Shown here: positions 13,557 to 48,036 of the stretch, piece after piece | How the letters are laid out: each line of letters begins with the position of its first letter | Numbering within the stretch: position 1 is the stretch's first letter | From: a virus | IMG/VR virus record: IMGVR_UViG_3300023443_000116 | Coordinates: 1 to 50,895 of that record | DNA: 50,895 nucleotides | Strand: one strand, 5' to 3' | Notes under the pieces: model-generated | What the model was told of the DNA's origin: nothing | Seen by the model: the letters and a program-made list of their open reading frames with translations, nothing else | Database searches by the model: none | Program-made: the position numbers and the translations under genes

Positions 13557-14308
13557 TGACAGATGAAATTAAAGATAGAACGATTGCAAATGCAAGAGAA
13601 CGAGCATTGGGAAAAGAAGCCGTAGGACCGACTTATATTCCTTTCGGCACCGAATCAAGATTACTAGGTGGCCCCAAACTATTCGCTGCTTTCTCCAAAT
13701 TCCAAGGTGCTGTTGGTAAAATAGGCAGAGCTAGCCAAGGACAAATAGGTCACCAACAATATAAATATGCTCCGCTTGAGGTTGTGGTTGAAGCTATTAA
13801 GAAACCAATGGCAGATAACGGCTTATCATACACACAAATGCTTAGTGAAAACAAGGTGTCAACGTTCCTGTTCCATGAAAGCGGAGAGATATTAGAAAAC
13901 GTCAATATATTTCCTGAATGGGCAATGGAAGATAGCTCTGATCGTGGGGAGCCAATGCAACGTGCCGGGATTAAACATACTTACATGCGGAGGTATGCTT
14001 TGCTTAGTTTAATTGGGCAATCGCCAGATGATGAGGATTCCGATGGTGCTAATAAAAAAGCAACTACAGTGAGTAAGGAAAAGAAAGCTGCTGAGAAGCT
14101 TAGAAAGGATTTGATGGGGTGTACCACCGAAGACGAGTTAGTTGCGCTCTGGGACGCGTCTGAACCAATCCTAGCTGGTATTAAAAAAGTATCCCCGGAT
14201 AAAGCTTACAGGGCTTTGAACAAAGTTTACAATGACCAGCTAAACAACTTACGGCTGCCTGAAGATACTGTTGAGGATATAGGACGGGATGAAGAAGTCG
14301 GCGACTAA
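13556..14308 (+). CDS. erf: ERF-family single-strand annealing protein
   Basis: 250 residues. The ERF core is clear: LFAAFSKFQGAVGKIGRASQ, then YKYAPLEVVVEAIKKPMADN, then LSYTQMLSEN and AGIKHTYMRRYALLSLIGQS. These proteins anneal complementary single strands for phage recombination and genome circularisation. The C-terminal 75 residues are variable and acidic. No exonuclease partner is evident in the window. Confidence 0.9.
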   Translation: MTDEIKDRTIANARERALGKEAVGPTYIPFGTESRLLGGPKLFAAFSKFQGAVGKIGRASQGQIGHQQYKYAPLEVVVEAIKKPMADNGLSYTQMLSENKVSTFLFHESGEILENVNIFPEWAMEDSSDRGEPMQRAGIKHTYMRRYALLSLIGQSPDDEDSDGANKKATTVSKEKKAAEKLRKDLMGCTTEDELVALWDASEPILAGIKKVSPDKAYRALNKVYNDQLNNLRLPEDTVEDIGRDEEVGD

Positions 14309-14876
14309 ACTAGAAAAGGCACACCTGACAAGGATAGCTGAAATGGAAACGTGGAAACAAATACCAGGATACGGGGGTCATTACAGGGCCTCATCGCTAG
14401 GGCGAATTAAATCTCTCCCGCGCATAGTTAGGAAACGCCACCAGCATGGGAAAATTATGTCCCAAAAATATGGTGAACAAATATTATTTCCTCAAAAGCC
14501 AGATAGGGACGGGTACTTTCATGTTCATTTGTCAGTTGACGGAGTTAAAATTAACCGCACGGTTCACCGTCTTGTTTTGGAGGCGTTCACGGGGCCACGA
14601 CCAGATGGAATGGAATCTTGCCACAACAACAGCAACCCTACAGACAATCGACCAGAGAATCTAAGGTGGGATACCCACGCTAACAACAACGGTGATCGGT
14701 TAAGACGGGGCAATTATGCAACAGGCGAAAATCACCCGATGTCAAAACTTTCTGACAGGTGTGTTGCCACTATATACAGGAGTGGGTTGAGCGCGAAAGA
14801 GATAGTCCTTAAATATCGCATATCAAAAACACAAGCACACCGAATAATTAACGGCAACCACGGGGCTTTAAGATGA
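14289..14876 (+). CDS. NUMOD4-HNH homing endonuclease inserted ahead of ref
   Basis: 195 residues if started at ATG 14289; ATG 14343, with AAGGATAGCTGAA upstream, is probably the native start. From residue 19 comes NUMOD4 (WKQIPGYGGHYRASSLGRIK), then an HNH core (VHRLVLEAFTG, ESCHNNSNPTDN, PENLRWDT), then a C-terminal HTH-like segment (LSAKEIVLKYRISKTQAHRI). The first 18 residues match the first 18 of the downstream Ref protein (11 identical), so the endonuclease lies in a duplicated 5' end of ref. Such enzymes cleave related phages lacking the insertion. Confidence 0.88.
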   Translation: MKKSATKLEKAHLTRIAEMETWKQIPGYGGHYRASSLGRIKSLPRIVRKRHQHGKIMSQKYGEQILFPQKPDRDGYFHVHLSVDGVKINRTVHRLVLEAFTGPRPDGMESCHNNSNPTDNRPENLRWDTHANNNGDRLRRGNYATGENHPMSKLSDRCVATIYRSGLSAKEIVLKYRISKTQAHRIINGNHGALR

Positions 14877-15160
14877 AAAAACGCCCGAACAAACTCGAAC
14901 AGTTTCACCTTCAGCGCATAAAGGAAATAGGATGCCTAGCTTGCGGCCAAGTGGCGGTCATACATCACTTGCTCCGCGCACCCAAGAGAAGGTCGTGGCG
15001 TTGGACGGCTCCTTTGTGCGCGAGGCATCATAATATGTCTAATGATAGTGTTCATTTATCTGGGGTGGGAGAGGTAGAGTGGTTCGCATCCAAAGACTAC
15101 CCTGATATTGTTAAATGGGCTGAAGAACAGTGGGAGATTAGCAAGGGGAAATTCGTATGA
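14873..15160 (+). CDS. ref: Ref-type HNH nuclease (recombination enhancement)
   Basis: 95 residues: GCLACGQVAVIHHLLR gives a CxxC and tandem histidines, PLCARHHNM the second Cys/His cluster, followed by SVHLSGVGEVEW. This matches the C-terminal domain of P1 Ref, a RecA-dependent nuclease, in the short form common in phages. It overlaps the endonuclease gene by ATGA and is intact despite that insertion. Works plausibly with ERF and RuvC. Confidence 0.78.
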   Translation: MKKRPNKLEQFHLQRIKEIGCLACGQVAVIHHLLRAPKRRSWRWTAPLCARHHNMSNDSVHLSGVGEVEWFASKDYPDIVKWAEEQWEISKGKFV

Positions 15161-31631: not shown

Positions 31632-32304
31632 CTGGCTGCAAGAAGACGGACGCGCCTTCTTCGTCCCACATAGAAACACCTGCTTTCAGTACAGCGGCCC
31701 TTGATACAAGATGATTGGTCAGTCCGCCATATTCATCTCCCAAGAACTCCGCCAGATTATAACTTAAGGCCATAAACCACTCCTGCGGGAAATCGGGACT
31801 GTCAGTCGAAGCATCAAAGTCTTCTATAGACCGCGCAAAAGTAAATTTGAAAGACCCGCTATTTCCTGAAGCTAATGTGGGCCAGACAAAAAGTTTTCCC
31901 GTAGTTAATTGAGGAGTATAGTAGAAGTTAGTGGGTATTCCTGTTGAAGATTTTAGGCTTAATTCAAAGTATTCCTGTCTTGAGTAGTGGTTCATAGGAA
32001 TGTCGCCAGAAGTCTGGGAAAACTGCATATCAATAATTCTCAAAGGTCTTACGGTGAAATTCCCAGAAGGTCCCATGGTATAGGATTCCTGTGATGTTAC
32101 TGCTGTAAGCGTTCCTCTGGTTTCAATCCATAAATCAGTGTCCTTTTGCCAATCCTTTACAAGAATATTCAATGCCTGTGAGCCCCTTACAACCATATCA
32201 GAAGATAACGCTTCACCTTCAGCGCCTATTTTTAATAGAGAAAAGGCCCTTGTAATGATGTCATCTCTTGTCATTGAGAAATCAGTTGAGCCGCTTGTTG
32301 CCAT
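31624..32304 (-). CDS. Tail accessory factor (P22 gp4-like)
   Basis: 226 residues. MTRDDIITRAFSLLKIGAEG, SQALNILVKDWQKDTDLWIE and a C-terminal ALSYNLAEFLGDEYG are characteristic of the P22 gp4-like tail accessory proteins that bind the portal after DNA packaging. Overlaps the gp10-like gene by eight bases. Confidence 0.8.
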   Translation of the reverse strand: MATSGSTDFSMTRDDIITRAFSLLKIGAEGEALSSDMVVRGSQALNILVKDWQKDTDLWIETRGTLTAVTSQESYTMGPSGNFTVRPLRIIDMQFSQTSGDIPMNHYSRQEYFELSLKSSTGIPTNFYYTPQLTTGKLFVWPTLASGNSGSFKFTFARSIEDFDASTDSPDFPQEWFMALSYNLAEFLGDEYGGLTNHLVSRAAVLKAGVSMWDEEGASVFLQPDG

Positions 32305-33137
32305 TATATCCTCGGATTGTTAACTGTTGAAGTTGTCGTTGAAATATAGTTCCCAGGATTACCACTTTTGTCATACGCTCCCCACAAAAAAAGAGCCGCA
32401 GAAGAATCTCCTACATAAGAAGTCCCTAAATCAGCATCAGTGACCTGGAATACTCCTGTTGTAGCGGTTCCTGTCGTTGAAGGAATGCCTGTAGCAGTAC
32501 AGCGATACCATATATCGTCAAGGATTGTTCTTCGCTCTATCCTTCCCGCCGCAAGAGTAGCTGTTCCTGAGTTGGTAGCAGAACCTACAGACCCATCGCT
32601 CAAGTTAAACCAGACATTTATCCGATTAGAAGAATTACCGGTTTCATAAGCCTTGATTAGTAAAAAGGACCGCGAACCTTTTTTAGCCTCAACACTAACG
32701 GTCAAAGCTGACTGCGGATTTAAAACAGAACTCTGCTCTAAACTGTGTTCGCCATTGGTAATGTCATCGATAAGAGAATCAGCAGTACTCTGGCCATCCG
32801 AAGCCGCTATTGAATCAGCAACAACGGTTGAATTGGTTTTAGTCCAGCTTGCATTATCAAAGGTTTCAGACTGAAGAAACAGATTAACGCCAATAAAGAC
32901 ATCGGCAGGAGGAGGACGTACAGGTTTTACTGATTGTTTGTCTTTCCTTCCTTTCAAAGAAAGCTGAGGGTGTTTTGCCTCCCAGTTGTCTTTATGAACC
33001 CAAAATCCGTCCCAAGTCTTTTTAGCCTCTGATCGGCGCATTTTCTCACCAGTAAGATCATCTATCATCCAATAATCTTGCTTCCTATAATGATCTCCGT
33101 GAGTCAGAGAAGTATCAATTACGGAGCTTTTACTCAT
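32304..33137 (-). CDS. Structural protein with carbohydrate-binding-like domain
   Basis: 277 residues. Residues 1-60 (IDTSLTHGD, QDYWMIDDLTGEKMRRSEAK, KTWDGFWVHK, EAKHPQ) form a phage structural module. From about residue 82, NLFLQSETFDNASWTKTNST through FFLWGAYDKSGNPGNYI-type strands resembles phage carbohydrate-binding jelly-roll domains. Its first codons are duplicated upstream of the HNH gene at 33658-33744. Confidence 0.7.
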   Translation of the reverse strand: MSKSSVIDTSLTHGDHYRKQDYWMIDDLTGEKMRRSEAKKTWDGFWVHKDNWEAKHPQLSLKGRKDKQSVKPVRPPPADVFIGVNLFLQSETFDNASWTKTNSTVVADSIAASDGQSTADSLIDDITNGEHSLEQSSVLNPQSALTVSVEAKKGSRSFLLIKAYETGNSSNRINVWFNLSDGSVGSATNSGTATLAAGRIERRTILDDIWYRCTATGIPSTTGTATTGVFQVTDADLGTSYVGDSSAALFLWGAYDKSGNPGNYISTTTSTVNNPRI

Positions 33138-33640
33138 GACGCTCTCGCAAACTTACCAAAATGTCTCTGTGCGGCTTCAAAATAGGCTATATGAGCTGCT
33201 TCTGGTGTATCAAAGTAGCCAAGATGAATGGGTTTTTGCTGTACCCTGATGCTTGCACGATAGCGCCCACTACGCTTTACAAATGTCACTCCTTTAAACC
33301 CGGTAGTATTATCTGATCTAAGTTTTTGATTGGCCGCGTTTTGTGCTTGATTTGCCTCGCGTAAGTTATTCCAACGATTGTTAAGGCCGTCCCCATCCTT
33401 ATGATCTACGCCTTTTATTGGCCATGTACCTGTCATATAAAAAAACGCAAGACGGTGAGCATAATAAAGAGTGTCATCAATTCTGATTTGAACACGCTGA
33501 CGCTGAAAACCTTTTAAAATAGAACCAGCAATATCTCCGCATCGTGCGCCCCCTCCGCGATTTTTATTCCATACAAAAATTCCAGCATCAGGGTAATATT
33601 CCAGAACTTCTTTCAGTCGTTGCTGAGTTAATCGGCTCAT
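33134..33640 (-). CDS. HNH endonuclease with AP2 domain (homing)
   Basis: 168 residues from ATG 33640 with GAAGGAAAAGAA upstream (ATG 33661 overlaps the previous stop). HNH core: YYAHRLAFFYMTGTW, VDHKDGDGLNNRWNNLREA; AP2 DNA-binding end: NTTGFKGVTFVKRSGRYRAS and HLGYFDTPEAAHIAYFEA. It interrupts an operon of virion genes and lies exactly between a 28-codon orphan start and the intact gene sharing that start. Confidence 0.88.
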   Translation of the reverse strand: MSRLTQQRLKEVLEYYPDAGIFVWNKNRGGGARCGDIAGSILKGFQRQRVQIRIDDTLYYAHRLAFFYMTGTWPIKGVDHKDGDGLNNRWNNLREANQAQNAANQKLRSDNTTGFKGVTFVKRSGRYRASIRVQQKPIHLGYFDTPEAAHIAYFEAAQRHFGKFARAS

Positions 33641-33657
33641 TTCTTTTCCTTCTTTTT

Positions 33658-33744
33658 TCATTGATGACTTATACTAAGGAATTCTGAGCGTTCTGTAAAC
33701 CAATCGCCATGCGTTAAACTGGTATCTATAGGCCCTCTACTCAT
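33658..33744 (-). pseudogene. Orphan 5' end (28 codons) of the 32304-33137 gene
   Basis: It begins MSRGPIDTSLTHGDWFTERS and stops at 33658, overlapping an ATG of the HNH gene. IDTSLTHGD is identical to residues 7-15 of the downstream structural protein, but the codons differ at several third positions, so the copies are diverged. It starts by TAATG overlap with the previous gene, in the position the true gene start must have held before the endonuclease entered. Confidence 0.75.
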
Positions 33745-34364
33745 TAGACTTGCAGAACATTGGCACTAAGCGTGGCCCCGGATGAATACGAACTCACCAC
33801 AAACTGAAGACCTTCATGTGAGTTGGTCAGGGTTGTGTTGAGGTCTGCTGTTTTAGATGTAAGGGCTGATATTGCAATCCAGTTAACCGTATCTGTGCCC
33901 TGCACATCTATGAAGGTTTCGTTTACCGTGTAGTTAATCGTGCCACCAATATCTATAGCAATGGTAGTTCCGGTGTGGTTATAGCGGTTCATGGGAACAG
34001 TTTGTGATTTTGCTTCATCGGAAACCCCTGCTGACATATTGGTGCCGATTGAAGCGCTAGAGGCAATTTGAGAAATGGTCTTCCAATATTTCGCAGTTGT
34101 CACTGTGTTGCTTACCGGCGCGGAAATCGTTTCAGTAGTCCCCACGCCAAGTTCGGTTGTCCCTGTAATTGTCAGTGTTGCCGCTGATACATCGGCGGCA
34201 CTTTCAAAATCAATCTTCTGAGCAGTCGGCAAAGAAAGTGTCCCCGAACTTGTCAAAGAACCATTCAAGTTAAGATCACCAGCCGCAGTTAGTGTTTGAT
34301 CCTGTGCAACATTTGTGATTGAAGGGACTTGCAGAATAAAATCAAGCCGTTTATTTCTAGACAT
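33744..34364 (-). CDS. Virion structural protein
   Basis: 206 residues, Thr/Ser-rich and beta-stranded throughout (GDLNLNGSLTSSGTLSLPTA, VNETFIDVQGTDTVNWIAIS), typical of phage decoration or fibre-shaft proteins. AACTTAGGAGAAAAAT precedes ATG 34364. Specific role unknown. Confidence 0.7.
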   Translation of the reverse strand: MSRNKRLDFILQVPSITNVAQDQTLTAAGDLNLNGSLTSSGTLSLPTAQKIDFESAADVSAATLTITGTTELGVGTTETISAPVSNTVTTAKYWKTISQIASSASIGTNMSAGVSDEAKSQTVPMNRYNHTGTTIAIDIGGTINYTVNETFIDVQGTDTVNWIAISALTSKTADLNTTLTNSHEGLQFVVSSYSSGATLSANVLQV

Positions 34365-34373
34365 ATTTTTCTC

Positions 34374-34697
34374 CTAAGTTACGGCAAAGGTTCCTACATC
34401 GCTAATAAATATATCGGGACCTCCACCGGTATTTTTATAAGTTAAAATTGCTGTATATGTACCGGCAACATCAAGATCGCCGGTCAATATGGTATATTGC
34501 GCCCAAGTATTAGCTGCCAATGTCCCTAAAGGAGTTCCCGTTAGTTCTGATGTCCCCAGAGTAGGAACCCACGTATCGGTTGTTACCGCACCACCTGTCG
34601 CGGTTTTGGTTATTGCGGTTGATAATGATGTGTTTGAGGACATATCAAAAGATGTTGCAAATCTGAAGATAATCCCTTCTTCGCCTACCTTAGCCAT
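34374..34697 (-). CDS. Virion structural protein
   Basis: 107 residues from ATG 34697, which overlaps the preceding stop (TAATG); a TTG at 34706 is less likely. MAKVGEEGIIFRFATSFDMS and GTYTAILTYKNTGGGPDIF form an Ig-like beta pattern. Found beside the repeat fibre. Confidence 0.65.
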   Translation of the reverse strand: MAKVGEEGIIFRFATSFDMSSNTSLSTAITKTATGGAVTTDTWVPTLGTSELTGTPLGTLAANTWAQYTILTGDLDVAGTYTAILTYKNTGGGPDIFISDVGTFAVT

Positions 34698-36745
34698 TAT
34701 GGACAAATCTCCGTTTTAATATAAATTGTTTGTTCTCTCATATCACCCAAGACAACAATATCACTACCGTCTATGGTGGTTGAAACTGTTTCTGTGTCTG
34801 TAATTGTATTTTTGACGTAAATGGTTTCAGTTGTCACATCCATTAAGAGATGGACAAGGTTTGTAATTAACGTAGCCACATATTCAAAGCATCTCACCAC
34901 AATTACGCTGGCAGAACCTATAGCCGTGGCTGCAATGGTGATTAACACCGTTTTAAGCCTGCTCACGGACGCAGTACCGATTCCCGAGGCTGCTATGGTC
35001 TTTTTAACCGTCTTGAGCCGTGACAAGGCTGCTGTGCCGATGCCTGAAGCTGCGATTGTTATTCCTCTTGCCACCTTGAAGGCCGCTGTTCCGACCCCAG
35101 AAGCTGCAATCGTCTTGGGGAATCTGGCAACTCTGCCTAAAACAGCAGTACCAACCCCTGAAGTGGCAATAGTCAAAGCAACTGTTTTTAACCTTCCGAC
35201 AACTGCCGTACCAACGCCAGAAGCGGCGATAGTTAAGGCAACTATCTTTCCTCTTCCAACTGAAGCTGTGCCAACACCTGCTGCTGCAATAGTCTTGGCA
35301 ACCGTTTTAAGTCTTGATAACGCCGCCGTACCAACGCCAGAAGCGGCGATAGTCTTGGGAAACCTAGCAACTCTTGATAATATTGCTGTACCCACGCCCG
35401 TTGCAGCGATTGTAATTGCTCTAGCTACGGTAAAAGCTGCTGTGCCAATACCTGATGCAGTTATAGTAACGAAAGTCTTTTTAACAAAATTAGCAGTACC
35501 AACACCACTTGCAGCTATAGTCTTGCCTACAGTTTTTAATCTTGCCAAAACCGCAGTACCAACTCCTGATGAGGCTATGGTAATAGGAAAAGTTGCCGCT
35601 CCCGCATCTGCCTCTAGCGTTAAGGCCCAAGTGGTATTTGCCCCAAGCGTACCAGAAGTTCCGCCTGTATAGCTGAGACTTAAATCATCACCAGCAACAA
35701 AAGTAACCGTGTTCACAGTGTCTTCAATTAACGAAGTCGAAGCCGCCGTGTGGCTTAAAGTAACAGCAGTATCAACACCATTCTTTCTAAGCGTAAATGT
35801 TGCGTTTCCGGTATAAGAATTTGATAGCGCGTGTATTCTCAGGTTGGAAGCCGTACCATCATACTGCATAGAGTGTTTAATGCGTTCTTCATCGGTATTG
35901 TCGTCCACTTCCCTACCTGATATTGGCCAGAAATGAACCGTTGCACTGGCCGTCCTCGTCCCGGCCACAACTCCTATACAATCCTGCTTTGAGTTGGTGG
36001 AGATAAAAGTCGCTCCACAAGTGGTATACACCGTGGCTCCGCCAGAGCCTTCTATCAATTCCGTTTCGACAGTATCAGCAGCCGAATAGGAAACCGCACT
36101 TCCTGTGTCTTCAAATAATCCAGTAGTAGCTGCTGTTATAACCGCCGATTGTGCTGTGGCCGTTCCGTTTACAGCAACAGACGCAGAACCATTCCCAGAA
36201 GTAGTGTTGGAACTCACAAAAATATAGGTTCTTGTTATAGTCCCGGCAGACCTTAAAAGATGAGTATTTGCAAGCGCGCTATTACTTGGCCCCAAAGTTT
36301 GGTTCATATACTGAAAGTCAGTGCCAGCTATAGCATCACCATTGTTATCAACAACATTTAAAATAAAAACCGTATCGCTTGTAGCGTCAAAAACACATGA
36401 AAAGAATTCAGGAGTTAAGGCTGCTACCGTGATTCCGAAGTTTATTTTATCATTAGCACTAACCGCGTCAGTATTGGTGTTGTCAGTAAATTCTCCCGCG
36501 CCAGTGGGGACAACCGTAATTGAAGTATCGGCAGCTCCGTTTCTGACAGTAACCGCGCTACTAGAACCACCAGCCGCGACCCTGACCCATAAATCAGAGA
36601 GAGTACCAGCCGCACCAATAACGGCCTGCATTTGAGCCTCTGTACTACTACCAACTATACTATGAAAAGCAGCCCCCATCGTAAGAAAAGTGCCATCGTT
36701 ACTGTCATCCGTCTGAGCATAATAAAATAGGGTAGTCTTAGCCAT
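34697..36745 (-). CDS. Long repeat-containing fibre/adhesin
   Basis: 682 residues. The first 385 are beta-rich domain sequence. Residues about 386-616 hold twelve tandem repeats of 18-20 residues with core TIAASGVGTA followed by a variable basic linker (LSRLKTVAK, LGRVARFPK, FKVARGI). The last 65 residues are a non-repeat cap. Similar TATGVA-type repeats are known in phage surface proteins. Probably a fibrous virion appendage. Confidence 0.75.
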   Translation of the reverse strand: MAKTTLFYYAQTDDSNDGTFLTMGAAFHSIVGSSTEAQMQAVIGAAGTLSDLWVRVAAGGSSSAVTVRNGAADTSITVVPTGAGEFTDNTNTDAVSANDKINFGITVAALTPEFFSCVFDATSDTVFILNVVDNNGDAIAGTDFQYMNQTLGPSNSALANTHLLRSAGTITRTYIFVSSNTTSGNGSASVAVNGTATAQSAVITAATTGLFEDTGSAVSYSAADTVETELIEGSGGATVYTTCGATFISTNSKQDCIGVVAGTRTASATVHFWPISGREVDDNTDEERIKHSMQYDGTASNLRIHALSNSYTGNATFTLRKNGVDTAVTLSHTAASTSLIEDTVNTVTFVAGDDLSLSYTGGTSGTLGANTTWALTLEADAGAATFPITIASSGVGTAVLARLKTVGKTIAASGVGTANFVKKTFVTITASGIGTAAFTVARAITIAATGVGTAILSRVARFPKTIAASGVGTAALSRLKTVAKTIAAAGVGTASVGRGKIVALTIAASGVGTAVVGRLKTVALTIATSGVGTAVLGRVARFPKTIAASGVGTAAFKVARGITIAASGIGTAALSRLKTVKKTIAASGIGTASVSRLKTVLITIAATAIGSASVIVVRCFEYVATLITNLVHLLMDVTTETIYVKNTITDTETVSTTIDGSDIVVLGDMREQTIYIKTEICP

Positions 36746-40957: not shown

Positions 40958-41716
40958 TTAAGAAAGGTAGTCTATTGCAGCTTTCAAAGACTCCTTTGAA
41001 TCTCTGAAAAGCCCGAGGCCACGGTTACACTGAGAACAGAGAAGGCCTCTTATTTTTCCTGTCTCATGACAGTGATCTACTGCCAAACTAAAGTGTTCAT
41101 CCTTTTTCTTGCAAATCGCACAGGTTCCGTTTTGCGCAGAATACATTTGCCGATATTGTTTCCCAGTTATTCCAAACCTTCTTTTAAGTTCATATTCCTT
41201 ATGTTTTTCCTTTTTTAAACCTCTAGAGGCTCTTTGAAATCTAGCCTGATAAGTCTTATTATCTTCTCCAGGATGTTTTTCTATTATACTTCGCTTCCAA
41301 ATAAAGTTATTGGGGCCAATGGGCTTTGATTCATCCGCCGCAAAAAGTTTATGTTTTTTAGAAGGTCTTTGACCCACATCAGCAACAAATTGAAGAAAAT
41401 CATTTTGCCATTCAGGGGCTATCTTTTTAATACCTCTGTGGCGATAAAGCCATGACCATGCATTGCCTAAAGGATGTTTGTTAATTGCACCCCAAGAATC
41501 AGGACGAGTCTGCTTGGTATGCCCATGTTTTCTTAATCTTTGACGATGTTTATCACAAAGGCCGTGAGAAACTACATAATCTGTGCAATCAGTTATAGAA
41601 CAGTTGCTTCGCTTACTTCTGTCAACATTGCTTCTTTTCCATCTGCTATAGCAAGCATCACACATGCCTCTAGCGACAATTCTTTTATCTCGTTTGCACG
41701 ATTTACAATTAGACAT
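40958..41716 (-). CDS. Recombination endonuclease VII-like HNH protein
   Basis: 252 residues. Two N-terminal zinc-finger-like segments (CKSCKRDKRIVARGMCDACY, CSITDCTDYVVSHGLCDKHR) precede an endonuclease VII core: CAICKKKDEHFSLAVDHCHE, TGKIRGLLCSQCNRGLGLF and a final AAIDYL helix. It interrupts the capsid gene block and has its own hairpin-controlled start, so it behaves as a free-standing homing gene rather than a T4 gp49-type resolvase. Confidence 0.85.
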   Translation of the reverse strand: MSNCKSCKRDKRIVARGMCDACYSRWKRSNVDRSKRSNCSITDCTDYVVSHGLCDKHRQRLRKHGHTKQTRPDSWGAINKHPLGNAWSWLYRHRGIKKIAPEWQNDFLQFVADVGQRPSKKHKLFAADESKPIGPNNFIWKRSIIEKHPGEDNKTYQARFQRASRGLKKEKHKEYELKRRFGITGKQYRQMYSAQNGTCAICKKKDEHFSLAVDHCHETGKIRGLLCSQCNRGLGLFRDSKESLKAAIDYLS

Positions 41717-41779: not shown

Positions 41780-42685
41780 TCACGCGCCCGGGCTTCCGAA
41801 CATCCCGCGCCAGTCTGACCATCCACTTGAATAACGATCATCAGCCTTGGCTTTTGCGTTGCCAGTGTCGAAGTCGTTATCACGCTGGAAGCGCTTTTCC
41901 CTGCGGTTGAAGTGAGTCATACCTTCAGGGGCGTTGGTCTGGATAAAGAAAGCGTCCGTATCCGTCAGGTATGGATTAACCAATATACCTTCAGGGAACG
42001 CGCCAGTTGAACGCAATGCGTTTATAGCGTTGTTAGCGGTATCGTTCTGCAAGATTGATTCCAGAATACGATGAGATTCAAATTCTCCTTCATTCGGGAC
42101 AATCAGCATCTTTGGCTGAATAGCAATGGTCAACCCTTTCGAGTTGGTTGCTTTCCTCGTTTGGATAACGAGGTCCTCCAAAGCCGCTTCTGACAAGTCA
42201 GCAGCAGTAGCGATGTGGTTGGATTGCGTACCGTCATCGGTAATATGAGCTGTTGACAGAAGTTCAACACCGTCAGCACCAGTGAAGTTGGAATCAAACG
42301 CGTTATTTAAATGATTCGCGTGGATTACCTCCTTACCTTGGCGCATCGAGAAAGCTAATCTTCCTGCACGTCTCATGCCTACCTCTTCGTAGAGATCGTC
42401 TTCCATTTCTTCCTCGGTGACAATATAACCAAGAGCATACACGGTATGTGTATAATCCTCGATGTCGCCCTGGAATTCATCTTCATAGGAAACCGAAGCC
42501 CCCTGTGGTTTGATGACAGGAAGGCCGAAGCCTTTGATTTCAGGTACACGCTCAAATGCCTTATTGGATGATTCTATGGCAAAAATCTGAGTCCAAATCT
42601 CAGGCTTTTCATCATATTTTGCACCAAAAAAGGCATGGACTCCCGGCCATAGGGCAACGGGATGATTACCAGTAGTAATTGTCAT
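41780..42685 (-). CDS. Major capsid protein (Mu gpT-like HK97 fold)
   Basis: 301 residues. WPGVHAFFGAKYDEKPEIWT, FGLPVIKPQGASVSYEDEFQ and the E-loop-like region GYIVTEEEMEDDLYEEVGMR with a later NPYLTDTDAFFIQTNAPEGM match Mu gpT-type major head proteins. TAGGAGGTAGGT precedes the ATG. It follows a scaffold gene and a decoration gene, as expected. Confidence 0.85.
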   Translation of the reverse strand: MTITTGNHPVALWPGVHAFFGAKYDEKPEIWTQIFAIESSNKAFERVPEIKGFGLPVIKPQGASVSYEDEFQGDIEDYTHTVYALGYIVTEEEMEDDLYEEVGMRRAGRLAFSMRQGKEVIHANHLNNAFDSNFTGADGVELLSTAHITDDGTQSNHIATAADLSEAALEDLVIQTRKATNSKGLTIAIQPKMLIVPNEGEFESHRILESILQNDTANNAINALRSTGAFPEGILVNPYLTDTDAFFIQTNAPEGMTHFNRREKRFQRDNDFDTGNAKAKADDRYSSGWSDWRGMFGSPGA

Positions 42686-44854: not shown

Positions 44855-45095
44855 CTCTTTTTGCTTCCTTTACTACTTCTTCCATGCTTTCAATGACATC
44901 TTTGGCGTCCATTGCCCCCACTATATCTTCAATGGCTGCTAAATATTGTTTGTCTGATTTTTTTAAGCCAAGATTCCTATAGGCTTGGTATCTAATTGAT
45001 CGCGCCTTCTCCAGCAGGGACGTTCTGAAGTCCTGCGTCATTGGCAGGTCCAGCCACTCCCGGTGTTCCTCCAGCCACTCCTTTGGTTCTAACAT
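44838..45095 (-). CDS. Hypothetical protein overlapping the portal 3' end
   Basis: 85 residues from ATG 45095 behind CTAGGAGTGCTAG, starting MLEPKEWLEEHREWLDLPMT. Its first 104 bases lie inside the portal gene in another frame. Helical with acidic C-terminus. ATG 45041 is an alternative start but has no ribosome binding site. Confidence 0.65.
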   Translation of the reverse strand: MLEPKEWLEEHREWLDLPMTQDFRTSLLEKARSIRYQAYRNLGLKKSDKQYLAAIEDIVGAMDAKDVIESMEEVVKEAKRDGLES

Positions 45096-48036
45096 CTAGC
45101 ACTCCTAGAAAGTTCATGAGCAGCAAGAAGGTCGCTTGCAAACTCCTTGTTGAGGCTCCAGCCTCGGCAGCAGCATTTAATTTGGCTGTCGCATCGGCGA
45201 CCATCTGAATGACCCTGGCCTTTATTTCCATTGTATTTGCGTCTGCCCTTTGCCTGTCGTTTTCCAGACGGGCAATCATTTCCAGAACTTCCGGGTCTGG
45301 TTGAGGCGTAATAATAAGTTCTTCAGGATTCTCTACCCCGATAGCTTCAAAGAATCTCTTGGTGACTTCCTGACCATTTACAAAAGGATTCCCCAACTGA
45401 GACATTAAAATCTCTGCTCTCTTCTGTTTGACAGCATTTGACACCATGTTCGGGTCTGAAACCGGGACCACTGCTATATCATCTCCATAATCAGAACGTG
45501 CTATGGCTTGTGGATTATCAAGAATATCAAAGTATTCCTGATCTGTCAGGAATTTCTGGTTCAACTTATAAAGCAACATCCCCTCTTTCTTCAAAGAACG
45601 GTGTATCCTTTTGTAGATTGCTGTAAAAACCATCTCGCCCTGTTCTATCAGAGCTAAAGTCGTAGTAGGCTGTTGGGCTTGAGGTAATTTTCCCGTAGTA
45701 ACATCCTGAACGCTGGAAATATCTTTAGCAGCGTCTATAAGCAATCCCAGCAACGAAAACAGTACACCGGAAGGGTCGCGTACAGGTAAAGGAAGGATGT
45801 TGTCCCTGAGGCTCCCTACACCCACATCAACGGTTTTAAATTCTCCTATCTTGAAAGCAGTTTCGCCCTTTTTCATGCGGATACCGCGTCCAATAAACCC
45901 CCCGCCTCTATTTGCTAATGTCCCGGCATCAATTAACTGGTTTACCAGAGTATTAACGGATTCATTGATGGGCAACATTAACTGTCCAAAACCCATTCCA
46001 TAAAATCCGCCCTCAGGATCAGGAAGCAGTATATACTTGATATAATATTTAATCGGAACAATCTTGCGGATACGTCTATTGTTTTCATCGCCAGCGAACA
46101 GCATTGTCGTAGAATCAAAGTTGGGGGCAATTCTAACAAGTTCCTGGGATTCTATATGAACGGTTACAATATAAGGCTCGGGGTAACCATCTCCATCCAT
46201 ATCAATTCTTGTGTGCTGTTCGATAAACTCTTCTAGTTCTTCTTCTTCGTCCTTCAACTTTAAATCTACATCCAGCCACAAACCGGATAGTTTTCTTTCC
46301 TCTATCTGATAATGATAAAGATTGAAACATTCGGTGATTCTTGGAGCAACATCAAGAGTTTTAACTTCTCGATTAACAATAACCTGATCGGGCCATAGTA
46401 CCTTGGTTTTGTTTCTGCCCAATTCAGGATCAAAAAATACTTTTCTGAACATACATCCCAAGATAGGAGTAGCATGGAGTATCGTATCTGTCCCGTCCTC
46501 CCATTCTTCCATTTCCTCAAGAAACTGGTAACTCATGTGGTCTGCTATCCTGCTTGCCCGGTCTCTCTTGGCACCAGGAGGAACCTGCCAGACTATCTGA
46601 CCGTTTAAACCTGCTACTATCTGCCCCTGTGCATCAACTTGAGGAATCCCGTCATCAGAGCCTATAACCTTGCCTTTCATTACCTGACGGTTGTTTACAA
46701 TCGCAGGATAGGCTCTGGCAGCAAATTGTATCGCAGCTACCGTGATTAGGGGGTATTTAACGTTACTGTTACCACACCATAAAGCCTTGCCGTTTCTCCT
46801 GACATAAAGCGTGTGATATGGGTTCGTTTCTACACAAGCAACTTCATCATCATATAATATTTTTCTGCGAGAAAGTTTAGAAACCTGAATCCTGTTTTTT
46901 GTACAGATATTAACATTATATCCTTCAAGATGACCCGTTATCTGCCTTCCGTTGATTACCCCTCCGAGTCTTCCCTCCCGCACTGAAAGGCTACCTCGTA
47001 AACCTATTTTTTGACAAATTTCTTGGACATCACCAGCCAAACCTTTTGAAGTTGTGAAGTATGATATTAAATCGGGCTTAACGCCACGCTTGGTTCTGCA
47101 TCCATCACCCAAAATTAAAGTATCCAAAAGGTCACTGAGAAGAGATGTGTTTAAGGACAGGGCGTGTTTGGGTATTCTTTTCTGATTACAAACACCCAGA
47201 TTTCTAAGTTCTTTTTTTAGCATTTCGGGTATTGTCTTTGCGTGGACAATAATGCTCTCGTCGTATTCTTTATATGAAAAGCCACACGCTTCGATGTCTT
47301 GCTTTAATTTCTCATAATTCTCAGGATTCGCTGATTTACTTTGTGCAATAGAAAAACTGCCTTTGCTCAATCCGTAATCTTTAAAGTCGCCGCCAACTGT
47401 AGTATAAGTGTTTCTTGGGTAAAGCGCAGACCCCTCAGAGACAAACCATCCTAAAAATCTCATGTATGCTTTAACAGGAATACCATAAATCTTTCTAGAC
47501 GACTTACCAGACCAGCCAGACGTTAAGGGGATGTACAGGCTATCAAGTCTTCGTTCCAAAAACTCACCGGCTTCAATAAATTTTTGCTTTCCAGATTTGG
47601 TTTCCACTAACATTTTATGATTTGGAGTAACTATTAAATCAATACTTTTGCCGGAAAAATGAACTGCTTCGCCAGCCACATATCTATAGGTTTCAGAAAC
47701 CGGGCAATACTTGGCTGCGCCATCTTCATCTCGACTAAGAACTCTTTCCCCTACCATTACTTCCGCAACAGGTTTCCAACCCTCCTCAGTCAGAACATCT
47801 GTATCAAGCGAATAACAAGCGTTTTTCCATGGCGTTGATTTAGATTCAGCAACCTGTTTTGCCAAATCCATTGCCTCTTCGGACTTTTTCATCCATTCTT
47901 CGTTGGAACTTTCGTCGATTCTGAACTCTTCCAGCACTTTAGTCGAAATCAGCTTTAAATCGTCATCAGGAAGGAGTTGGGCTATATTTGCCTGTCCTAT
48001 TACTGTTTCCAGATCAATTACTTCTTGAAGCGCCAT
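44992..48036 (-). CDS. Portal protein (P22-like) interrupted by an intein
   Basis: 1014 residues as read; 664 after intein removal. Extein parts: residues 1-73 end in ESKSTPWKNA and resume at 424 with SNVKYPLITVAAIQFAARAY, together the conserved portal N-terminal region. The rest (PIKYYIKYILLPDPEGGFYG, SVNTLVNQLIDAGTLANRGG, ISSVQDVTTGKLPQ) is a P22-type podovirus portal. AGGATATTAAT precedes the ATG. Without splicing the dodecameric portal could not form. Confidence 0.92.
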   Translation of the reverse strand: MALQEVIDLETVIGQANIAQLLPDDDLKLISTKVLEEFRIDESSNEEWMKKSEEAMDLAKQVAESKSTPWKNACYSLDTDVLTEEGWKPVAEVMVGERVLSRDEDGAAKYCPVSETYRYVAGEAVHFSGKSIDLIVTPNHKMLVETKSGKQKFIEAGEFLERRLDSLYIPLTSGWSGKSSRKIYGIPVKAYMRFLGWFVSEGSALYPRNTYTTVGGDFKDYGLSKGSFSIAQSKSANPENYEKLKQDIEACGFSYKEYDESIIVHAKTIPEMLKKELRNLGVCNQKRIPKHALSLNTSLLSDLLDTLILGDGCRTKRGVKPDLISYFTTSKGLAGDVQEICQKIGLRGSLSVREGRLGGVINGRQITGHLEGYNVNICTKNRIQVSKLSRRKILYDDEVACVETNPYHTLYVRRNGKALWCGNSNVKYPLITVAAIQFAARAYPAIVNNRQVMKGKVIGSDDGIPQVDAQGQIVAGLNGQIVWQVPPGAKRDRASRIADHMSYQFLEEMEEWEDGTDTILHATPILGCMFRKVFFDPELGRNKTKVLWPDQVIVNREVKTLDVAPRITECFNLYHYQIEERKLSGLWLDVDLKLKDEEEELEEFIEQHTRIDMDGDGYPEPYIVTVHIESQELVRIAPNFDSTTMLFAGDENNRRIRKIVPIKYYIKYILLPDPEGGFYGMGFGQLMLPINESVNTLVNQLIDAGTLANRGGGFIGRGIRMKKGETAFKIGEFKTVDVGVGSLRDNILPLPVRDPSGVLFSLLGLLIDAAKDISSVQDVTTGKLPQAQQPTTTLALIEQGEMVFTAIYKRIHRSLKKEGMLLYKLNQKFLTDQEYFDILDNPQAIARSDYGDDIAVVPVSDPNMVSNAVKQKRAEILMSQLGNPFVNGQEVTKRFFEAIGVENPEELIITPQPDPEVLEMIARLENDRQRADANTMEIKARVIQMVADATAKLNAAAEAGASTRSLQATFLLLMNFLGVLDVRTKGVAGGTPGVAGPANDAGLQNVPAGEGAIN
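46768..47817 (-). mobile_element. Full-length LAGLIDADG intein in the portal gene
   Basis: 350 residues (portal residues 74-423). Cys74 starts block A (CYSLDTDVLTEEGWKPV); block B has TPNH (137-140); the two LAGLIDADG helices are RFLGWFVSEG (193-202) and LLDTLILGDG (303-312); block F has YHTLYVRRNGK; block G ends LWCGN with Asn423 followed by Ser424. The penultimate residue is Gly rather than His, a known variant. The intein should splice itself out and its endonuclease should cut intein-free portal genes. Confidence 0.95.

Follow-up and report, generated by a model that had tools for sequence, protein, structure and literature searches.

An HNH endonuclease gene in the analysed DNA very probably belongs to a homing element that functions without an intron and that consists of the endonuclease gene together with its own diverged version of the opening ∼22 codons of the gene that it invaded. 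The element was found in a 50,895-nt stretch of viral DNA, referred to in full as the window, between a 28-codon orphan and a tail gene. To become established in conserved coding sequence, homing endonucleases are generally considered to depend on self-splicing introns or inteins, and free-standing ones are viewed as intergenic. Because this endonuclease carries its own recoded gene start, it would invade coding sequence with neither.

The coordinates and junctions of the orphan, the endonuclease gene and the tail gene (33744-32304, minus strand) were exactly as an earlier note on this DNA had given them (Table 1). The TGA stop codon of the orphan overlaps the ATG of the endonuclease gene (ATGA). 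The tail gene begins MSKSSVIDTSLTHGD (longer, MSKSSVIDTSLTHGDHYRKQDYWMIDD), in codons unlike those of the orphan, and PHROG tail proteins match its C-terminal two thirds. The gene upstream of the insertion yielded no match in Pfam or PHROG. The codon divergence of the two starts, which the note had suggested measuring, proved to be considerable: in the shared IDTSLTHGD, 18/27 nt were identical and seven of the nine common residues differed in codon. The orphan and tail-gene start peptides aligned with a score of 51, as compared with a shuffle mean of 18.4 (SD 4.2). As none of 5000 shuffles scored as high, the likeness of the two starts is not due to chance. In a scan of the whole window, this was the top start-start pair. 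No relative was found when named phages were searched at the DNA level with the region around the window, and the orphan alone gave no meaningful match to named phages (E of 9-10 only).

Table 1. Features of the two invaded loci in the window.
Feature	Coordinates	Strand	Basis or remark
Gene upstream of the insertion	33744..34364	-	Stop overlaps orphan start as TAATG
Orphan, 28 codons, MSRGPIDTSLTHGDWFTERSEFLSISHQ and stop (begins MSRGPIDTSLTHGD)	33658..33744	-	Same start as L003 gene
Native-derived part of orphan, 15 codons to GGCGATTGG	33700..33744	-	Sequence comparison
Mobile cassette (endonuclease and substitute start), boundaries inferred	33072..33699		Comparison
Homing-endonuclease gene, 175 aa, HNH_3 and AP2 (phrog_99)	33134..33661	-	Pfam/PHROG matches
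HNH_3 nuclease domain, residues 66-109	33335..33466	-	E=1.9e-14
AP2-type DNA-binding domain, residues 120-166	33164..33304	-	E=2.7e-6; 28.0 bits, under the Pfam cut-off of 33.3
Tail gene, regenerated form, 277 aa	32304..33137	-	ATG overlaps endonuclease stop (ATGA)
Substitute start, tail-gene codons 1-22, carried with the endonuclease	33072..33137	-	Sequence comparison
NUMOD4 and HNH_3 endonuclease, first 18 codons being the presumed native start of the next gene, in frame	14289..14876	+	Comparison
Invaded gene, substitute start, ATGA overlap with endonuclease stop	14873..15160	+	Weak RecA_dep_nuc match

A search of IMG/VR with the N-terminal 81 residues of the tail-gene product identified two close relatives, both from metagenome 3300023284. 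One of these, L003, has no endonuclease, and its tail gene begins MSRGPIDTSLTHGDHYKKGDWW (also given as MSRGPIDTSLTHGDHYKKGDWWMIDD and MSRGPIDTSLTHGDHYKKGDWWMIDDFSGEKMRR), like the orphan. The window orphan is without six codons (HYKKGD) that L003 has, and the gene upstream in L003 differs from that in the window. In the other relative, L002, an endonuclease lies directly upstream and the gene begins (V/M)SKSSVIDTSLTHGDHYRKQDWWMIDDFSGEKMRR, like the downstream copy in the window; the L002 contig is without the 5' end of the endonuclease gene, and its comparison covers the 3' part of that gene and the tail gene. Since the uninterrupted gene of L003 begins like the orphan, the orphan represents the native start; since the downstream-type start of L002 is linked to the endonuclease, the downstream copy represents the substitute. 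The proposal of the earlier note that the orphan was the original start of the tail gene is thus borne out by the one endonuclease-free allele of this gene, that of L003. The finding that would have undone the proposal, namely that the orphan is an independent conserved small gene, is contradicted, in that the orphan sequence is the start of a full gene in L003. That the endonuclease brings a substitute 5' end agrees with L002, which has the substitute start only along with the endonuclease. According to these comparisons, the orphan is the severed original start of the tail gene followed by a short stretch of element sequence.

The edge of the cassette is apparent from the same genomes. L002 and L003 are closely related (for the most part 85-98% identity in 60-base steps), and each has ∼72% identity with the window. 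The exception is a segment running from the 3' end of the endonuclease gene to about base 65 of the tail gene, over which the window and L002 are 93-98% identical. In this comparison, dS was 0.13 over the last 40 endonuclease codons and 0.28 over codons 1-22 of the tail gene; past codon 22, 74 of 97 synonymous sites differed, which is near saturation. L002 and L003 yielded the reverse pattern, with a dS of 0.43 past codon 22 and saturation ahead of it. The switch in dS at codon 22 indicates that a single segment, comprising the endonuclease and the substitute start, passed from one diverged phage lineage to another. These data place the insertion junction at about codon 21/22 of the tail gene and show that the endonuclease and the substitute start travel as one unit.

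The encoded endonuclease possesses the core of the HNH_3/AP2 family (phrog_99): the D-H...N residues and a C-terminal AP2 domain, the latter at a score below the cut-off. The catalytic residues D86, H87 and N95/N99 were invariant among 12 relatives. Over most of the stretch shared with L002, dN was 0.11-0.12 and dS 0.58-0.81, values that point to purifying selection on the enzyme. The gene is itself mosaic with respect to L002, in that dS is 0.13 in its final 40 codons and 0.6-0.8 in the rest.

Other features of the window include a probable structural protein of 682 residues (34697-36745, minus strand) with many repeats of ∼34-37 residues built on TIAASGVGTA, and a portal gene (44992-48036, minus strand) with an in-frame intein, for which weak matches to Hint_2 and LAGLIDADG_3 lie between the portal parts. 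An endonuclease VII-type gene (40958-41716, minus strand; PF02945, 1.6e-25) separates the structural gene that follows from the gene at 41780-42685, which probably encodes the major head protein. At this endonuclease VII-type gene, no duplicated start was seen.

The same arrangement is seen at high resolution in Gamaleyaviruses. Escherichia phage ECBP1, which came from a tblastn sample of related endonucleases, has the endonuclease ahead of its exonuclease gene, a homologue of N4 gp42. In seven endonuclease-free Gamaleyaviruses or close relatives (nithesis, IME11, St11Ph5, phi G17, Bas96, ZQ2 and Moonfish), the exonuclease gene starts ATGAAGATAACCAACAA(C/T)CATGATGTCTC and continues through GACGAG and TATGATTACGTAGAC, with minor variations. 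ECBP1 and G7C retain this start as a 21-codon orphan, cut exactly past codon 21 and closed by TAA, that is identical to the endonuclease-free relatives at up to 52/54 nt. The orphan is followed by the endonuclease gene and then by a recoded start, ATGAAACTTACCAACAAACACGACGTTAGT through GATGAT and TATGATTATGTAGAC, which matches the orphan in 16/21 residues and 42/63 nt (67%). The substitute start had 26/39 identical nt, and the remainder of the gene was ∼90% identical. Between ECBP1 and nithesis, dS was 0.15 past codon 21, and 11 of 14 synonymous sites were changed ahead of it. The ATGA overlap and the insertion point at codon 21 are the same as in the window, in an unrelated gene. A substitute 5' end linked to the endonuclease is therefore also found on comparing ECBP1 and G7C with the seven endonuclease-free phages. 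The endonuclease is polymorphic for presence and absence at one site, being present in L002 and absent from L003, and likewise among Gamaleyavirus genomes.

A published comparison (PMC3670811) states that no gene seems to have been interrupted by any of the five HNH genes of G7C. Among the HNH endonucleases of G7C and other N4-like phages described there, G7C gp41.1 directly exemplifies the arrangement described here. Contrary to that statement, the alignments place gp41.1 within gp42, the start of which it re-supplies, the substitute start concealing the insertion. The other four HNH genes of G7C had no such duplication.

The window contains a second case, on the plus strand. The endonuclease at 14289-14876 begins MKKSATKLEKAHLTRIAE, ahead of its NUMOD4 domain, and the next gene begins MKKRPNKLEQFHLQRIKE. 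The two starts aligned with a score of 51, which none of 5000 shuffles reached (shuffle mean 15.4). This case escaped the scan of the whole window for duplicated starts, since the presumed native start does not form a separate orphan but is joined in frame to the endonuclease. Endonuclease-free relatives of the downstream gene (L017 and L018), which are distant only, begin with a similar motif. The earlier note had described two unrelated endonucleases without naming the first, which we took to be this NUMOD4-HNH_3 gene. The description fits the other modules of the two enzymes (AP2 versus NUMOD4) and fails for the nuclease domain, which is HNH_3 in both.

In a comparable fusion in Salmonella phage AG11, the first codons of the endonuclease ORF form a lysozyme start of native type that belongs to the SS10/LDW16 allele class. 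The AG11 lysozyme restarts with the allele class of PVP-SE2, an endonuclease-free phage, and the substitute equals the PVP-SE2 allele over 60 nt; judged from the pair itself, either of the two starts may have come with the endonuclease. More broadly, the lysozymes of Salmonella Jerseyviruses (L193-L196 and L026) have two allele classes of the first ∼10 codons, SNRNISNNGIKF and SNRNISDNGLHF, both of which circulate in phages with no endonuclease upstream. It is possible that these classes are sources or relics of cassette exchange.

We then determined how often gene ends are duplicated at endonuclease loci. An unanchored, loose scan gave too much background in reading frames of high GC content, where a score of 48 was seen for 28 of 455 control genes, so the scan was anchored at start or stop codons, with a threshold score of at least 40. 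Among 170 endonuclease loci, seven start duplications and six end duplications were detected. Randomised pairings yielded 0/3996, and control genes yielded 2/645 for starts and 2/645 for ends. With the two window cases removed, five duplicated starts and six duplicated ends remained in 168 loci (starts or ends, 11/168 versus 4/645 in controls; Fisher p=1.4e-5). The duplicated starts belong to endolysin-like, exonuclease, tail-collar, RusA and NinB-like proteins; the case in the NinB-like gene (L141), which has an apparently late start, may be an internal insertion. At a lower score, a duplicated start was found in a terminase-like ATPase, an identity read from the sequence itself as Pfam gave no match. 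In-register start pairs had a nucleotide identity of only 52-67%. Duplicated gene 3' ends flank endonuclease genes in the phage or prophage contigs L072, L152, L016, L092, L122, L149 and L243. The NUMOD4-type loci L184-L192, which lie beside other genes, had no start duplication, and a wider scan of 94 NUMOD4 loci yielded one start candidate and two end candidates at scores of at least 40, indicating that the pattern is rarer there than elsewhere. The suggestion that start replacement is a general mode of free-standing homing holds insofar as the arrangement recurs on many different genes, the invaded ones encoding a tail protein, an exonuclease, a lysozyme/endolysin, RusA, a terminase-like ATPase and a tail-collar protein. 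It is too strong as to frequency: most loci scanned were without such a duplication, which was detectable for starts in ∼3% and for ends in ∼4% of them, and at only one of the five endonucleases of G7C.

Other histories could in principle produce two starts. Phages do have tandem paralogues, and two control genes gave true-looking start pairs, as would be expected had the gene been duplicated in tandem, the upstream copy decayed and the endonuclease landed between the copies. This sequence of events is hardly credible here, and we rejected it: the gene is single-copy in endonuclease-free relatives, the orphan ends exactly at the substitute junction (codon 21/22), and the substitute is near-identical between the window and L002 while the remaining gene is saturated. 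In the Gamaleyaviruses, moreover, it is the orphan and not the substitute that matches the population allele. Splicing of the orphan, as exon 1 of a self-splicing intron, to codon 22, with the apparent substitute being intron sequence, would restore the native protein, and group I introns often house HNH endonucleases. Such an intron is nevertheless very improbable and was likewise rejected. No Rfam match was found in the window at the gathering threshold or around both junctions at E≤1, although introns of unusual type may escape Rfam. In ECBP1, 16/21 residues are unchanged in the substitute and 11/14 synonymous sites are different, a sign of coding constraint that argues against intron sequence, and the start codons and ATGA couplings are conserved. 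The element was accordingly not assigned to the mobile group I introns, Rfam detecting no group I RNA around the endonuclease. Nor was it assigned to the inteins: stop codons flank the endonuclease on both sides, and the enzyme has no Hint domain.

A further possibility is that the endonuclease lay ahead of an intact donor gene, whose ordinary start is now seen downstream, and that the recipient start was left behind by one-sided or error-prone repair. The nucleotide divergence of 33-48% resembles that of an allele from a distant phage, and the identity of the AG11 substitute with the PVP-SE2 allele is also as expected. As a full account we consider it doubtful. It explains the origin of the arrangement but not its stable state: the window and L002 have the entire arrangement in common, as do ECBP1 and G7C, and the homology is clean on both flanks, as it would be around a unit that had been inserted. 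This history fits with a carried substitute start as the first step: the ordinary start of a diverged allele in a donor was probably the source of the substitute, and AG11 may show an early stage of its acquisition.

For the element with a carried substitute start, we propose the following mechanism. The endonuclease would cut the uninterrupted gene near codon 21/22, and repair of the double-strand break would copy in the cassette, with homology directly on both sides. The element sits inside the coding sequence at about codon 21/22, with a substitute that differs mostly synonymously. The severed native start remains ahead of the endonuclease as a small leader ORF, or is fused to the endonuclease in other cases, and would bring ribosomes to the endonuclease. 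Because the endonuclease stop overlaps the substitute start (ATGA), translation of the invaded gene could resume there and give a protein whose N-terminus is equivalent. Divergence of the substitute at the nucleotide level would destroy the target, conferring immunity, and would also prevent recombination between orphan and substitute as direct repeats, and hence loss of the element.

Of published elements, the most similar are mobile ORFs of fungal mitochondria that supply a new C-terminus, carrying a replacement gene end in Allomyces atp6 and in Glomus atp6, atp9, cox2 and nad3 (PMC3630166); the phage case mirrors them at the 5' end. In both, an endonuclease lies inside a coding gene and is accompanied by a diverged copy of the severed part, the differences being mostly synonymous, and the native part stays as an unused remnant; the diverged copy and the retained remnant were both found here. 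The fungal elements replace the 3' end and use LAGLIDADG or GIY-YIG enzymes, whereas the phage element replaces the 5' end, encodes an HNH enzyme and relies on bacterial re-initiation. The replaced part is not C-terminal in the window or in ECBP1/G7C; 3' cases are those of L072, L152 and L016. The free-standing seg and mob endonucleases of T4 (PMC2988022) similarly lack an intron or intein and presumably spread by break repair with co-conversion of flanks. They lie between genes, however, and typically cut a neighbour at a distance, whereas the present element is located within the invaded gene, a part of which it contains. With its position within the native coding sequence of the neighbour, the element was not classed with the T4 type, which inserts between genes. 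The mobE endonuclease of Aeromonas phage Aeh1, a case of genes in pieces (cited in PMC3653736 and PMC10448857), also interrupts a coding gene, nrdA, with no splicing involved; nrdA remains divided and yields two proteins, whereas in the present arrangement the missing part is supplied anew and a single protein results. The open-access papers searched in full text yielded the fungal 3' version and no phage report of start replacement, and keyword searches of reviews and of a recent phage endonuclease survey gave no passage on it. To judge by these papers, the 5' start-replacement version is new.

On balance, we favour the view that gene-end replacement is a recurrent third route, beside introns and inteins, into conserved phage coding sequence, in which the severed 5' or 3' part is substituted, the native start is hijacked, and divergence guards against self-cleavage and excision. 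A carried replacement start would lift the requirement for an intron or intein in occupying conserved coding sequence. It would also explain why the stop codon of some free-standing endonuclease genes overlaps the start of the gene that follows, why short orphan genes occur ahead of endonucleases, why phage genes can change allele abruptly near the 5' end, and how some of the 'unknown' N-terminal extensions of endonucleases arose. For annotation, it carries the warning that an intact gene adjoining an endonuclease may be a chimera. The arrangement recurs in cultured phages of E. coli and Salmonella.
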